DNA of 64,000 nucleotides from a bacterium (GTDB taxonomy: Bacteria; Sumerlaeota; Sumerlaeia; SLMS01; JAHLLQ01), in contig JAHLLQ010000009.1 in NCBI GenBank assembly GCA_020444065.1, positions 1 to 64,000 of the forward strand. Direction: 5' to 3'. The translations under genes and the position numbers were made by a program. Positions 7,869 to 43,675 of the stretch are shown in pieces (position 1 is the stretch's first letter; the number at the start of each line of letters is the position of its first letter). The notes beneath the pieces are model-generated. The model saw only the letters and a program-made list of their open reading frames with translations. It was not told the origin of the DNA and ran no database searches.

Positions 7869-8059
7869 TATGTACTCCTGTCTGTGTGGAACTCGTTCGC
7901 AGGAATTCTGTTCCGGCTTGGCGCCAAACAATTGTTTTGCTTGAATTCAGTGCGGCGGATTCTTCCTAATCACGAGGAACGAGAGAAGTATATACCCGTG
8001 TCGCACTTTGTGAAGCGGAATATTTGGGTGAATCGGATCATCGGGGCGGCGAAACCAAG

Positions 8060-11017
8060 ATGAGAGGATCTCGCATTGTCTGGGTGTTGAGGTGGATGGC
8101 GGTGCTTATGGCACTCGTCTTCGTGGGGTGGGGTGCGGCTTTGCTGCGAGGAGCCCAGCGTGAGAAAGCCCAGGTTGCAGAGGGGGCTTTACTCGCGAGC
8201 CGCCTCGACTCCGTTCAGAGTAGCGTTCGGAATCTGAACCGCGCGCTGCGTCCTGCCTCAGGTCTTAATTCATCAAATATCGACGAGACCTGGGACCGCG
8301 CGCACGGGGAGTACGCTGCGGCCGTCGAATCTCTCGCGTCCGACTCGTCTTTCTTTCCGGCAATCTCGGAAACGGTCGGTGAGATGAACGACCATGTGGT
8401 CGCCATGTCCGATCTCTATCCCGAGGCGGCGGCCTTCCGCTTGGGAGATGCTTCTGAGCGAGAATCGGAGGAGAATTTCCTGCTGGAAAGCGCACTGGCG
8501 CTCGATCGCGTGAACGACGCTACCAGTGAGGTCCGTCATCAGATGGGGCTTCTGTCGGTCAGTCTCGATCGGCGTTGGAGTCGACTGCGCACCATCGTCA
8601 TCGTCTCATGTCTTCTGGCGCTTTGCCTGGGCATTATGCTGCTGATTCACCAGCGGGATCTCGATCGACGCATGCGAGTGGAGCACGATCTGCGAAGCGC
8701 GCTCGATTTCAGCGAGGAAATTGAACGGCTCGGGCACGCCATCAACGGCAACACCGAGATTGAGAAGATTCTGGATCACGTTTGCCAGGCCGTGCTGCGG
8801 CACTGCGGCATTCCCCACGCTTCGATCATCTACCGTTCGCCGTCTACACACCAACTTACAGAAAGCGTGACGACCGTTCCAGAGCAGCAGGCCGCCGGCG
8901 TGACTGTCCACAAGGAAGTGCGAAGCGAAGGCGGGCGCACGCAGCACATTCTGAAGAATCGCGAACGCATCGTGATGGAAGACATTGCGAACGATCCGTT
9001 CGAGCAGACCGATCATCTCTCGAATCGATTTGGCATGCGCTCCTACGTTGGGATGCCGGTCGAAGCAGGCGGCGAAGTGCTTGGCGTCATGTACGCCATG
9101 TCGCGGGAACCGAGGTCGTATGACAGCCGTGTGCTGCGGCGACTCGAGCAACTGGCGACGCAGGCCGGTGCCGCGTTGAGCAACGCACATCTCTTCTGGG
9201 AAGCGAAGCAGCAGAACCTGAATCTCGAAGAAACCGTTCGGCAGAGGACGCAAGACCTGGAGCAGGCGAACGTCGACTTGCGCAATGAGATTACCGAGCG
9301 AACGCGCACTGAGCAGGAACTGGAGTCGTCGCTCTCGATCCTGCGTGGTACCCTGGAATCCACTGCCGACGGCATCATGGTCGCCGATAAGAACGGCGAT
9401 GTCGTGACGTTCAATCGGAAATTCCTGGATATGTGGCAACTCCCCCGCGACCTGGTAGAAGAGGGCGGTCACTTGAAGGGAATGGAGATTGCCAAGGATC
9501 GATTGGCCGATCCCGAGGGGTTCATAAAGCGCGTTCAGGAATTGTACGAGAATCCCGAGAAGGAAGCGTGGGATACGCTGACCTTCGCGGACGGGCGGAT
9601 CATCGAGCGCTACTCGCTGCCGCAACGCAGCGGAGGCCAGATTGTCGGGCGCGTGTGGAGCTTCCGCGATATCACGCAGCGCCGCCGGGCCGAGGAGCGT
9701 TTGGCCTTCCTGGCCTATCACGATGCGCTGACGGAGCTTCCGAACAAGGCGGCGTTCGTCGAGCGCCTCGAAAAGGCGGTGCGCTCTGTGCGCGCCGGCG
9801 AGGAAGCGGATTTTGCCGTCCTGTTCCTCGATCTCGATCGCTTCAAGCTGATCAACGACGCGATGGGGCACATCACAGGCGACAAGTACCTGATCGCGGT
9901 TTCGCGCCGGTTGGAACGTTGCGTTCGCCCAGGGATCGATATCGTGGCGCGCTTCGGCGGGGATGAGTACACGTTCTTCCTCGACGGCGTTCGCGATTCG
10001 ATCCAGGCCGGACAACGGGCGGATGAAGTGCTCGAGATTCTCTCCGAGCCGCTCGACCTGGAAGGTCACGAAGTCTATCCCACGGCGTGCATTGGGATTG
10101 CATTGGCAACGATGGGTCACAATACGGCCGAAGATATTCTGCGCGATGCGGACACGGCAATGTATCGCGCGAAGGCGCTCGGGAAAAACCGTTACGCGAT
10201 CTTCGATCGTCAGATGCACGATCACCTGCTCCAGATGTTGGCAGTCGAAACCGAATTGCGGCGCGCCATCAGTGGCGGCGAGTTGCGGACTCACTACCAG
10301 CCGATCGTCGATCTTGAGGAACGACGCGTTGCCGGCTTCGAAGCGTTGGTGCGTTGGGAGCATCCCGAGCGCGGCGTGATTGCACCGACGGATTTCATTC
10401 CAATGGCCGAGGAATCCGGGCTCGTGATCGAAATCGGCGAGTGGATGCTCTCCCAGGCCAGTCGCCATCTGGCGCACTGGCACAGCGGCCGAAACGGAAA
10501 ACCGCTGCCGTACGTGACCGTGAATATTTCCGGGATTCATTTCATGCAGCGGGACTTGCTCGACGTGATCGAGCGTTCGCTTGAAGAAAGCCGCATCCCG
10601 CCGAACTTCCTTCGTATCGAGTTGACGGAGAGCGTCTTCATGGAAAGTGCCGAGTGGACGAGCGACATGATCGGGCGCCTGAAGGCGATGGATCTGAAGA
10701 TCCTGATCGATGACTTCGGCACGGGCTACTCATCGTTGAACTATTTGTATCGCTTCCCAATCGATGCGTTGAAGATCGATCGCAGTTTTGTCAGCAGCCT
10801 CGGGCGCGACAACGATGCGTACGAGATTGTTCTCGCGATCGCGACGCTGGCGAGAGCGCTCGGTATGGATGTGATTGCAGAAGGTGTCGAGACGCCGGAG
10901 CAGATGAACATCATCCGCGAACTGGGCATTCGTTACGTGCAGGGATTCCTGATTTCGCGTGCCGTCCCGATGGATGAAGCCGAAGCGCTCCTCGACAACT
11001 TGCCGGCGTTGTACTGA
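8060..11017 (+). CDS. Membrane GAF-PAS-GGDEF-EAL cyclic-di-GMP signalling protein
   Basis: About 985 residues. Two membrane segments (near 8-27 and 178-198) flank a periplasmic helical sensor. Then come a GAF domain (about 220-380), a coiled linker, a PAS domain (about 425-540), GGDEF (about 555-720) and EAL (about 740-985). The diguanylate-cyclase loop reads GGDEY rather than GGDEF. The phosphodiesterase domain keeps FEALVRWEHP, an intact metal-site ELTES and DDFGTGYSSL. It may therefore both make and break c-di-GMP, or act mainly as a phosphodiesterase. A TTG 36 bases upstream (8024) is an alternative start; neither has a strong ribosome site. The final base lies two bases from a convergent gene. 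Confidence 0.92.
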   Translation: MRGSRIVWVLRWMAVLMALVFVGWGAALLRGAQREKAQVAEGALLASRLDSVQSSVRNLNRALRPASGLNSSNIDETWDRAHGEYAAAVESLASDSSFFPAISETVGEMNDHVVAMSDLYPEAAAFRLGDASERESEENFLLESALALDRVNDATSEVRHQMGLLSVSLDRRWSRLRTIVIVSCLLALCLGIMLLIHQRDLDRRMRVEHDLRSALDFSEEIERLGHAINGNTEIEKILDHVCQAVLRHCGIPHASIIYRSPSTHQLTESVTTVPEQQAAGVTVHKEVRSEGGRTQHILKNRERIVMEDIANDPFEQTDHLSNRFGMRSYVGMPVEAGGEVLGVMYAMSREPRSYDSRVLRRLEQLATQAGAALSNAHLFWEAKQQNLNLEETVRQRTQDLEQANVDLRNEITERTRTEQELESSLSILRGTLESTADGIMVADKNGDVVTFNRKFLDMWQLPRDLVEEGGHLKGMEIAKDRLADPEGFIKRVQELYENPEKEAWDTLTFADGRIIERYSLPQRSGGQIVGRVWSFRDITQRRRAEERLAFLAYHDALTELPNKAAFVERLEKAVRSVRAGEEADFAVLFLDLDRFKLINDAMGHITGDKYLIAVSRRLERCVRPGIDIVARFGGDEYTFFLDGVRDSIQAGQRADEVLEILSEPLDLEGHEVYPTACIGIALATMGHNTAEDILRDADTAMYRAKALGKNRYAIFDRQMHDHLLQMLAVETELRRAISGGELRTHYQPIVDLEERRVAGFEALVRWEHPERGVIAPTDFIPMAEESGLVIEIGEWMLSQASRHLAHWHSGRNGKPLPYVTVNISGIHFMQRDLLDVIERSLEESRIPPNFLRIELTESVFMESAEWTSDMIGRLKAMDLKILIDDFGTGYSSLNYLYRFPIDALKIDRSFVSSLGRDNDAYEIVLAIATLARALGMDVIAEGVETPEQMNIIRELGIRYVQGFLISRAVPMDEAEALLDNLPALY

Positions 11018-40492: not shown

Positions 40493-41071
40493 TCAGCCGC
40501 TTGCCCCCCCATACAGTTTGTGTATCCGAATGTAATCCAGCACCGGCGCGGCGATCAGTTCTGCGGCGTCCTCGCGGCCGGCGGCGAGGCGTTCGCGCAC
40601 TTCGGTCGATGAGACCATCGGGAGGGCGCCCGGGCGCAGTCCGCGGGCCGGGTCGCCGGAGTCGGTGACGATGCGGGGGATCTCCAGCGGGGGAGCGAGC
40701 TCGACTACCGCCTCGCCTTCGCGCCACTTGGGCAAGTCGTCGATGATGTCCGTTCCGACAAGCAGGCGGCAGGAGTCGTCGGGGTGGCGGTCGCGCAGAA
40801 TCCGGATCGTATCCACCATGAAGGACTTGCCTTCGCGTTCGCCCTCGAGCGGATCGACGGTCGCCAGTCCATCCGCCAGCGGCTCGATGGCGATTCGGCA
40901 CATGGCCACGCGATGGGCGAAGGATGCGCCGGGTTCTTTCCCGAAAGCATGGCGCGCCGCCGGAATGACCAGCACGCGATCGACCTCGCCGGTTTGCAGA
41001 GCCCAGACGATAGCCATCGTGTGCGCCCGATGGGGCGGGTCGAACGTGCCGCCGAAGATTCCGATTCGCAT
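40493..41071 (-). CDS. nadD: Nicotinate-nucleotide adenylyltransferase
   Basis: Makes nicotinate adenine dinucleotide from NaMN and ATP in NAD synthesis. At 192 residues it is near the family norm. The nucleotidyltransferase motif GIFGGTFDPPHRAH (residues 4-17) holds the HxxH pair (His14, His17), and VSSTEVRERLAAG near residue 160 is the conserved SSTxIR motif. AAGGAG lies seven bases before the start. A two-TM gene is coupled downstream. Confidence 0.95.
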   Translation of the reverse strand: MRIGIFGGTFDPPHRAHTMAIVWALQTGEVDRVLVIPAARHAFGKEPGASFAHRVAMCRIAIEPLADGLATVDPLEGEREGKSFMVDTIRILRDRHPDDSCRLLVGTDIIDDLPKWREGEAVVELAPPLEIPRIVTDSGDPARGLRPGALPMVSSTEVRERLAAGREDAAELIAAPVLDYIRIHKLYGGASG

Positions 41072-41242
41072 GTCCAGGCTCCTTGGGGAAATGTTGCGAA
41101 CTGTTGTCGTTTGGATGCAACCGGAACAGGGCGTGTTCCGCGTGGAAGCGCCCGCAGCCCTTATCTCTTGCGTTGAGCGACGGTTCGATTCAGGCTCCAG
41201 CACAGTCGTATCGATCCGCCATCCGGGCAAAGAGGGGTGCCG

Positions 41243-42454
41243 ATGACATCGGACCGTGAGCCACTCCGTTGGCAATTTGAAGAGCTGATGATTCTGAAAG
41301 AGCAAGGCCAGGATCAGGAGGCTGCGGAGCTTTTTCAGAAGTTCCTGCAGCTCGGGCCGGAGCTCTTCGATCCCCTCGCCAGTTTCCTGATCAAGCAACC
41401 CAATCATCCGCGCATTGCCGTCCTGATCGAGCTCCTCGGAAAACTCGGCGATAACCGCGCTCAGCCGATCTTGATTCGCTTTCTGGATATCGAAGTGAAA
41501 GAGTTGCGTCTGAACGCCGCGATCGGCCTCGGGTGGATGCGAGCGCGCGCAGCGCTGGAGAAACTCGATGTCATCGAGGGGTTCGATCCCGACCAGGACG
41601 TTCGGCGCGAAGCGCAAATCGCCGTCGAGGAAATCCTGCGCGACTTCCCGACGTTGCGCGGCCAGTTGAAGCACCACAGCCGCGTGAGTTTGCCGCGCAA
41701 GGCGATTCATATCGACGATGAAACGGCGATCGCGCTGACGCGCACGCCGGAGGGCGAAGAGCGCCGCCGACTGGTGGGAATGCTGCCGCGGTTGTTGGCG
41801 ATGAGACACCGCGCCGTGCCGCTCGGAATTGGGCCGGGCGGAGTCGTATCAGTCGCGGTGCGGTCGGATTTACCGGAGGATCCCTCCGAGCTGTTGACGA
41901 AGTTGATCGGCCACGAGGTGGAACTGCACGGCTGGCCGCTGCCACGCATCTACGAGCGCATCCTGACGTTCTATGCGTGGGGCGACGACGACTGGGTGCA
42001 GTGCTCCGAGACGCTGACCGAAGCCTCGCGTCATGAAATTTGCCACGTCATTCTGGACAACATCGTTCCGGATGAGCCGCACCCGCCGCTGGAGGATTGC
42101 AGCGACTGCATCGAGGCGATCCAGTCGTTCCTTTCCATTGCCGCGCAGTGCAATTACAAGGCGGCCTACGTCGCGCAGGGCCCGGCGGACGACGAGTTCG
42201 AAGTCGTGATGCTGGATGCCGATGGAAATCGCACGGATCTCGGCGCACCGCCGGAGGAACTGCGCGAACGCTTCATGAAAGGCATTCGCATTCTGGCGAA
42301 TCTGAACATCCCCGGCGCTCACCATGGAAGTCGCGGTGCAATCCACTGCGTGAATCCGCGCGAAGACGAGCGCTTCGGCGTTGTCGTGACCGGCAAGCGC
42401 GAAGGCGCGCGCGAGATCCTGGCGTTCGAGTTCGTTCAGCCGGAGAATAACTGA
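41243..42454 (+). CDS. HEAT-repeat protein with MshEN and degenerate GspE-N2-like domains, no ATPase
   Basis: A 403-residue soluble protein. Residues about 10-135 form HEAT-like helical repeats (PILIRFLDIEVKELRLNAAIG). About 175-240 resembles an MshEN domain, the c-di-GMP-binding front of type II secretion and pilus ATPases (LPRLLAMRHRAVPLG, VVSVAVRSDLPEDPS, RIYERILTFY). About 270-385 looks like the N2 domain of those ATPases (an EAIQSFLSIAAQ helix, then RFMKGIRILANLNIP and GSRGAIH). The Walker A and B domain that should follow is missing. It may sense c-di-GMP or bind an assembly platform without hydrolysing ATP. The ATG at 41243 follows GAGGGG. Confidence 0.72.
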   Translation: MTSDREPLRWQFEELMILKEQGQDQEAAELFQKFLQLGPELFDPLASFLIKQPNHPRIAVLIELLGKLGDNRAQPILIRFLDIEVKELRLNAAIGLGWMRARAALEKLDVIEGFDPDQDVRREAQIAVEEILRDFPTLRGQLKHHSRVSLPRKAIHIDDETAIALTRTPEGEERRRLVGMLPRLLAMRHRAVPLGIGPGGVVSVAVRSDLPEDPSELLTKLIGHEVELHGWPLPRIYERILTFYAWGDDDWVQCSETLTEASRHEICHVILDNIVPDEPHPPLEDCSDCIEAIQSFLSIAAQCNYKAAYVAQGPADDEFEVVMLDADGNRTDLGAPPEELRERFMKGIRILANLNIPGAHHGSRGAIHCVNPREDERFGVVVTGKREGAREILAFEFVQPENN

Positions 42455-42511: not shown

Positions 42512-43675
42512 ATGCCCAAGAAACTTCGCCTGTTAGTCATTGCCCACTCCACCGAGAAATCCGGCGCGCCGAAGATTGCCACGCAGATGGCGGAGGGCTT
42601 TGCGGCGTTGGGCCATGACGTCGTGGCGTGCTATCCCGAGAGCGGCGGTTGCGAAGAGGAAGCGCGCGCGGCTGGTTTGAAGACGGCGATCGTGCCCAAT
42701 CCCGTGCGTCCGGTTGCCGACGCGTCCGGCGCCGAGCGCATTCGCCTGATGCTGACGCGGCTGCGCGCGATCTGGCTCTATCGGCGGCTCGTGCGCGAAG
42801 GTCGCTTCGATGCCGTGTGGATCGGCAGCTACATCGCCGTGCTGGCCGGCCTGGGGGCTTGGCTGGCGCGTGTTCCCGTCGTATACTGTGTGCAGGAAGA
42901 TCCCATCCCGACGTTCGTGAATCGTCAGCGCGTTCGCGTGATCCGCCGCACGGCGGCGGCGCTTGCGTTTGTTGCCCGGCGCAGCCAGCGCGTGTTCAAG
43001 CCGCGCCCCAAGCGGCAGCCTTGGATCATGTTGCCGAACTTCGCCGACTCGACGCGATACTCGCACGAAGGGCGTGATGAAGATTTGCGCGCGAAACTGG
43101 GTGCCGCGCCGGAAGATGTTGTCTTCACGACGCTCGCGTTCATTCACCATCGCAAAGGCATCGATGTGCTGCTGCGCGCGTTCCGCCAGGTCGTTGCCGA
43201 GCAGCCGCAAGCGCGCCTCTGGATCGCGGGCGATAACGTAGCAACAATGATGGATTATCGCCGCGAGCAGGAAGCCTACATCGCCGAACACAATCTGGGC
43301 GATCGCGTGACGTTCCTCGGCCACCGTGACGACGTGCCGGCGGTGCTGCACGCGAGCGATGTGTTTGTGCTGGCATCGCGCAACGAGGCACTGCCCGTGA
43401 CGATCATCGAATCGATGATGGCCGCGCGGCCCGTCGTGGCGACGGATGTGGGGTCGGTGAACGACATGATCGTGCCGGACGAGACGGGCGCCATTGTCCC
43501 GCCGGAGGACCCGGATGCCTTTGCCGTGGCGATGATGCCGTATGCGGCCGAAGCGGAACTTCGCGCTCAGCACGGCGCGGCGGGACGTGCCCGAGCGCTG
43601 GACCTTTACGACAGGCCACGCGTGGTCGAACGCGGAGTGAATCTGATTCGAAAAGTCCTCGCCGCGCGCAGCTGA
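42512..43675 (+). CDS. GT4-family glycosyltransferase
   Basis: A 387-residue GT-B-fold retaining glycosyltransferase. The N-terminal acceptor half begins LLVIAHSTEKSGAPK, with a Gly-rich loop. The donor half has VVFTTLAFIHHRKGIDVLL, ASRNEALPVTIIESMMAARP (the EX7E pair of GT4) and PEDPDAFAVAM. No clear ribosome site precedes the ATG. It is similar in plan to the one at 35486 but not a close copy. Donor and acceptor are unknown. Confidence 0.9.
   Translation: MPKKLRLLVIAHSTEKSGAPKIATQMAEGFAALGHDVVACYPESGGCEEEARAAGLKTAIVPNPVRPVADASGAERIRLMLTRLRAIWLYRRLVREGRFDAVWIGSYIAVLAGLGAWLARVPVVYCVQEDPIPTFVNRQRVRVIRRTAAALAFVARRSQRVFKPRPKRQPWIMLPNFADSTRYSHEGRDEDLRAKLGAAPEDVVFTTLAFIHHRKGIDVLLRAFRQVVAEQPQARLWIAGDNVATMMDYRREQEAYIAEHNLGDRVTFLGHRDDVPAVLHASDVFVLASRNEALPVTIIESMMAARPVVATDVGSVNDMIVPDETGAIVPPEDPDAFAVAMMPYAAEAELRAQHGAAGRARALDLYDRPRVVERGVNLIRKVLAARS

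Follow-up and report, generated by a model that had tools for sequence, protein, structure and literature searches.

The closest described relatives of the protein analysed here are the assembly ATPases of type II secretion (GspE/EpsE; 4pht, 1p9w) and of type IV pili (PilB; 5tsh, 5zfr, 7lko), in which an N1 domain, also called ND1 or MshEN_C, is followed by an N2 domain and then by the motor domain. PilB additionally carries an MshEN_N-like half, ND0, ahead of N1; by comparison, GspE of V. vulnificus and EpsE of V. cholerae have no ND0 half and their ND1 binds GspL/EpsL (PMC8389850), N1 without MshEN_N being the GspL-binding unit in the solved GspE-GspL and EpsE-EpsL complexes (PMC8389850). 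Within the hexameric motor of PilB, every N2 lies against the motor domain of the next subunit; the role of N1 in assembly motors is still unclear (PMC11656802). The same N-terminal module is also known from c-di-GMP receptors (MshE, NfrB and MshEN fusions), where the c-di-GMP site is formed by MshEN_N, the N-terminal four-helix half with two tandem 24-residue motifs, and MshEN_C is the non-binding half; MshEN domains occur in many fusions that are not ATPases (PMC5013675).

The window, a 64,000-nucleotide stretch of a metagenome-assembled Sumerlaeota genome, encodes on its forward strand a 403-residue protein (41243..42454) in which a HEAT-like helical part is followed by N1 (MshEN_C/ND1) and N2 domains of the GspE/PilB type, with no ATPase domain. 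This architecture, which an earlier note had read from sequence patterns, is borne out alike by profile searches, by profile-profile alignment and by the predicted structure. The open reading frame starts with an ATG at 41243 (an alternative GTG lies at 41237) and runs for 403 codons; in the family alignment the homologues start at the same methionine or close by, and the GC content by codon position (0.69/0.39/0.76) is coding-like. The N-terminal part, residues 7-141 (41261..41665), is HEAT/alphaRep-like and helical in the predicted model; the helical repeats proposed at the outset are HEAT repeats, as HEAT_2 (PF13646) matches residues 43-128 (41369-41626) of the window protein alone with an E-value of 1.3e-7, above the Pfam cut-off, and all eight aligned family members, with E-values down to 1.5e-14 in relatives. 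In the PDB, the family profile matches alphaRep chains with E-values down to 1.9e-23. A little-conserved, low-confidence linker (residues 142-171, 41666..41755; pLDDT below 50 at 149-179) connects this part to N1 (residues 172-246, 41756..41980), which has the stator-binding fold of GspE but is without the MshEN_N half. N2 occupies residues 287-399 (42101..42439) and retains its fold, its ring-interface and arginine-finger residues being gone. Between the two domains, where the ATPases have an acidic flexible linker, the family has a conserved segment of its own (residues 247-286, 41981..42100) with the motifs GDDD(W/F) and PxEPxxPL.

The homology of the C-terminal half to the ATPase front was traced both with the single sequence and with the family. 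The Pfam MshEN profile (PF05157) matches the window protein alone weakly, with an E-value of 0.013, below the cut-off, over profile positions 13-68 of 90; it matches eight of eight aligned family members, the best at 5.3e-9. A single-sequence search matched a full GspE-type ATPase, an open reading frame with a Walker A box, over residues 165-371 (E 4.2e-5), and the family profile matches full-length ATPases over about 170-370 with E-values down to 1.8e-14. Against the PDB (177,635 sequences), the family profile finds PilB chains, Geobacter PilB among them, over residues 172-399 (E 2.7e-5). The comparison of the C-terminal part with PilB/GspE that had been suggested as a check, carried out one-against-one with hhalign against an ATPase profile, gives a probability of 99.4 and an E-value of 7e-21 at 13% identity. 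Profile matches initially made descent from one ATPase type of the same genome (C2:240k) look likely, a candidate that was dropped; when scored directly, a second ATPase (C2:114k) came slightly above it and those of other genomes above both.

Structure prediction, likewise a suggested check, points the same way. AlphaFold gives a mediocre model of the whole protein (pLDDT 66, pTM 0.33) and a better one of residues 169-403 (pLDDT 82.7, pTM 0.78). A Foldseek search of the PDB with the latter returns 15 matches below an E-value of 0.001, and these are only GspE, PilB and PilF, the top three being the GspE-GspL structure 4pht; the C-terminal half is thus predicted to fold as an ATPase front and not as something else. 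N2, as had been proposed, is recognisable both in the profile match and in the model, which superposes on PilB/EpsE N2 at 2.4-3.3 Å over 111-117 columns, and N1 superposes on the N-terminal domain of PilB (7lko) at 2.5 Å over 70 columns (E 0.026, probability 1.00). Across N1 and N2 together the rmsd to 4pht is 17 Å, which may mean either that the two domains are placed differently relative to each other than in 4pht or that their predicted arrangement is unreliable.

The reading frame ends exactly where the ATPase domain would be expected to start, so that the Walker A and B boxes, the catalytic glutamate and the tetracysteine zinc motif are not reached. The observation that the protein stops before any Walker box extends to the family, Walker A being absent from 12 of 12 members, and the protein cannot complete an ATPase active site. 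Residue retention, scored in ten family members against 18 ATPases, separates the fold from the motor. Residues that look structural are kept (P182, P193, Y244 and P336 in 10/10, G365 in 9/10), whereas motor residues that are invariant or nearly so in the 18 ATPases are lost: the RxRxR arginines are retained in 0-2 of the ten members, the R347 column in none, PQD in 0-1, and the D379 and R381 columns in none. The losses extend over the nucleotide- and ring-contact stretches ASDxHxEP, RxRYRxDG, the R/K before the VMA/ILA stretch, RxPQDGR and DxRxS. The equivalents of PilB R271 and R286 (PMC5424180), a correspondence suggested by their 15-residue spacing, are lost in 10/10 and 9/10 members, respectively.

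Whether the N1 domain could sense c-di-GMP depends on the half that precedes it. In the aligned Pfam matches of the same genome, PF05157 starts downstream of the c-di-GMP motifs and models MshEN_C; since this half does not bind the ligand, the Pfam label MshEN is no proof of c-di-GMP binding. In the window protein, the HEAT repeats and the linker occupy the place expected for MshEN_N. A scan for two 24-residue RLGxx..G..xxxxLxxxLxxQ motifs with a 5-residue spacer, in the strict and relaxed published forms, found no such motif in the window protein, where scores stayed at the level of shuffled sequences, while four positive controls from the same genome (L017, L018, L021 and L024) each carry a motif pair at a distance of 29 residues. 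A degenerate partial motif at residues 29-52, with six strict positions, also scores no differently from shuffled sequence, and it overlaps the helical repeats. The MshEN reading therefore holds for the MshEN_C/N1 subdomain, present in all eight aligned members, and fails for the c-di-GMP-binding half; the domain is better called a GspE-type N1 than a c-di-GMP sensor. Elsewhere in the genome, a 455-residue protein (L094:7968-9335, forward strand; G000:C2, about 206 kb) has both c-di-GMP motifs and MshEN_C followed by a divergent region without a Pfam match; it shows no ATPase match and fits the idea of a c-di-GMP sensor without an ATPase better than the window protein does.

The family is narrow. 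It was found in 12 Sumerlaeota genomes, namely the genome of the window, 10 of its 11 order-mates and one from a more distant family of the same class (G014). The remaining 27 class or phylum genomes searched gave no homologue, and a search of 195 genomes of another phylum, run without a positive control, returned no relatives. Relatives are 24-49% identical to the window protein and, where complete, about 373-410 residues long. Scanning contigs with the single window protein recovered no relatives and scanning with the alignment recovered seven. All named public records found to encode a relative belong to Candidatus Sumerlaeota/Sumerlaeia, as judged with one pattern in the HEAT part, a scan that may miss members elsewhere. 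The HEAT-N1-N2 protein thus appears restricted to Sumerlaeota as far as searched, and no description of it, nor any joint mention of MshEN and HEAT repeats, was found in the literature searched. In its surroundings, nadD (40496-41071, reverse strand) lies divergent from the gene and a glycosyltransferase gene (42512-43675, forward strand) downstream. An all-against-all comparison of neighbouring open reading frames revealed, nadD apart, no conserved neighbour and no pilus or secretion gene nearby in the 12 genomes. nadD adjoins the family gene at two loci only, divergent in the window's genome and in tandem in the most distant relative G014 (L056:8782-9333, reverse strand), and because the orientation differs the pairing is not taken as functional.

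The machinery that such a front could contact is encoded throughout the phylum. A check for type II secretion or type IV pilus genes elsewhere in the genome found assembly ATPases, with at least five full PilB/GspE-type proteins among the T2SSE matches, together with PilM_2 and T2SSF proteins; PilM_2 proteins are present in 41/41 genomes searched, this one included, and T2SSF platform proteins in 15/15. Genomes without the family encode PilM-like proteins just as those with it do, so that co-occurrence lends no support; co-occurrence with the C2:240k ATPase type was set aside along with it, as both are near-universal in the class.

We favour, at a probability of about 0.5, a soluble non-catalytic adaptor, whose docking, role and target system we infer. 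Its N1 would dock on the PilM/GspL-type stator of one type IV filament machine, as GspE N1 docks on GspL, while the HEAT solenoid would hold a second partner; the outcome would be either the recruitment of a factor to the filament machine or the occupation of the stator sites of the real ATPase. Candidate partners (PilM_2, T2SSF and full assembly ATPases) are encoded, and the structural-looking residues of N1 and N2 are kept where those of the motor are lost; against this, no operon or neighbourhood links the gene to pilus or secretion genes in the 12 genomes, and the family is narrow where such machines occur throughout the phylum. The main competing explanation is that the N1-N2 module has been repurposed as a scaffold in an unrelated process with no contact to pilus or secretion machines. 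We consider it possible, though less probable than the adaptor. The gene stands alone, its divergence from the ATPases is strong, as the low identity in the profile alignment shows, and a family-specific segment replaces the N1-N2 connector; however, the family preserves the N1 fold with its structural residues, and where N1 occurs without MshEN_N its documented function is to dock on GspL/PilM (PMC8389850).

The absence of the c-di-GMP-binding half also makes a docking or adaptor protein more likely than a signal sensor, and bears directly on the proposal of the earlier note, a free c-di-GMP sensor that mimics the front of the ATPase. The name of the matched Pfam domain speaks for such a sensor, as does the GGDEF-EAL protein reported in the window, which is indeed present as a GAF-PAS-GGDEF-EAL protein at 8024-11017 on the forward strand (Pfam EAL E 3.7e-75, GGDEF E 1.4e-42). 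With MshEN_N missing, motif scores no better than shuffled beside clearly positive controls, and nearly all ring-interface and arginine-finger residues of N2 gone, a c-di-GMP-gated mimic is very unlikely; what may survive of the idea is mimicry by the stator-docking face alone, the ring-interface side of N2 having been lost. Those same losses weigh on the notion that the protein forms mixed hexamers with an assembly ATPase, as a non-catalytic subunit that lowers or gates turnover: N2, which packs against the adjacent motor domain in PilB (PMC11656802), is retained, but the presumed R271/R286 equivalents are missing from almost every member and there is no motor domain to carry the ring onward, which leaves this arrangement improbable. 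As for the possibility that this is an ATPase gene in decay, the truncation ahead of the Walker A box is what decay might leave, yet the domain boundaries are equal in 12 genomes at 24-49% identity, the frames hold no stops and codon use is coding-like; conservation contradicts decay, which we regard as hardly credible, and the constant architecture across the 12 genomes argues instead for selection on the ATPase-less form.

Several further detached or degenerate GspE fronts are encoded by the same genome, some with intact c-di-GMP motifs. One is a prepilin peptidase (A24) with a C-terminal MshEN_C fusion (L095:6663-8174, reverse strand; G000:C3, about 231.7-233.2 kb; Pfam MshEN E 5.9e-16), lacking the MshEN_N half and followed by a hydrophobic, membrane-like segment. 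Another, of 235 residues (L093:11612-12319, forward strand; G000:C2, about 242.6-243.3 kb), combines MshEN_N, with one clear and one weaker motif, MshEN_C and a hydrophobic C-terminus, and lies directly after a GspE-type ATPase (L093:9160-11376); the same two matches are also adjacent in G001, G002 and G004. A third (L096:6469-8757, reverse strand; G000:C10, about 91.5-93.8 kb) joins MshEN through a long acidic linker to a degenerate T2SSE domain (E 1.4e-11) in which no Walker A box is seen, making it a pseudo-ATPase. In the L100 region (G000:C5:97174-98325), a GspE-like ATPase sits within an 874-residue open reading frame whose unusual N-terminal half, in place of N1, comprises a signal-like start, a repeat-like region, a membrane-like segment and zinc-ribbon-like cysteines. 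Genes for GspE/PilB-type ATPases were seen in pairs, separated by about 3 kb, in seven other genomes (G013:C331, G014:C70, G018:C895, G022:C418, G027:C36, G031:C413 and G039:C69), and the recurrence of such pairs in many Sumerlaeota suggests a filament system that uses two such ATPases for assembly. Taken together, the HEAT fusion, the MshEN-membrane protein beside an ATPase, the MshEN_C prepilin peptidase and the MshEN proteins with degenerate motors could act as interchangeable plugs, none of them a motor, for the PilM/GspL stator, several regulators competing with motors for one socket, a speculative and rather unlikely scheme.

Set against the described systems, the window protein shares with GspE/EpsE an N1 without MshEN_N, then N2, in equal folds, but differs in having no motor domain or zinc motif, in the lost N2 ring and arginine-finger residues, in its N-terminal HEAT solenoid and in its place outside a gsp operon. 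With PilB it shares the order and fold of N1 and N2 and the sequence match over 172-399, but has neither ND0 nor the ATPase domain; with the MshEN receptors (PMC5013675) it shares the MshEN_C subdomain, but neither MshEN_N nor the two 24-residue binding motifs. A likeness may be proposed to the PilZ/FimX-type cofactors of PilB (PMC8389850, PMC11656802), accessory proteins acting at the level of N1 and stator, although their domains are unrelated and here the accessory protein itself bears the N1 fold. The case is a reminder that the Pfam label MshEN alone does not equal c-di-GMP binding. How motors are recruited to the pilus stator, or released from it, is poorly understood, and a conserved, natural N1-N2 protein without a motor would be a ready-made tool for asking what the front does alone.
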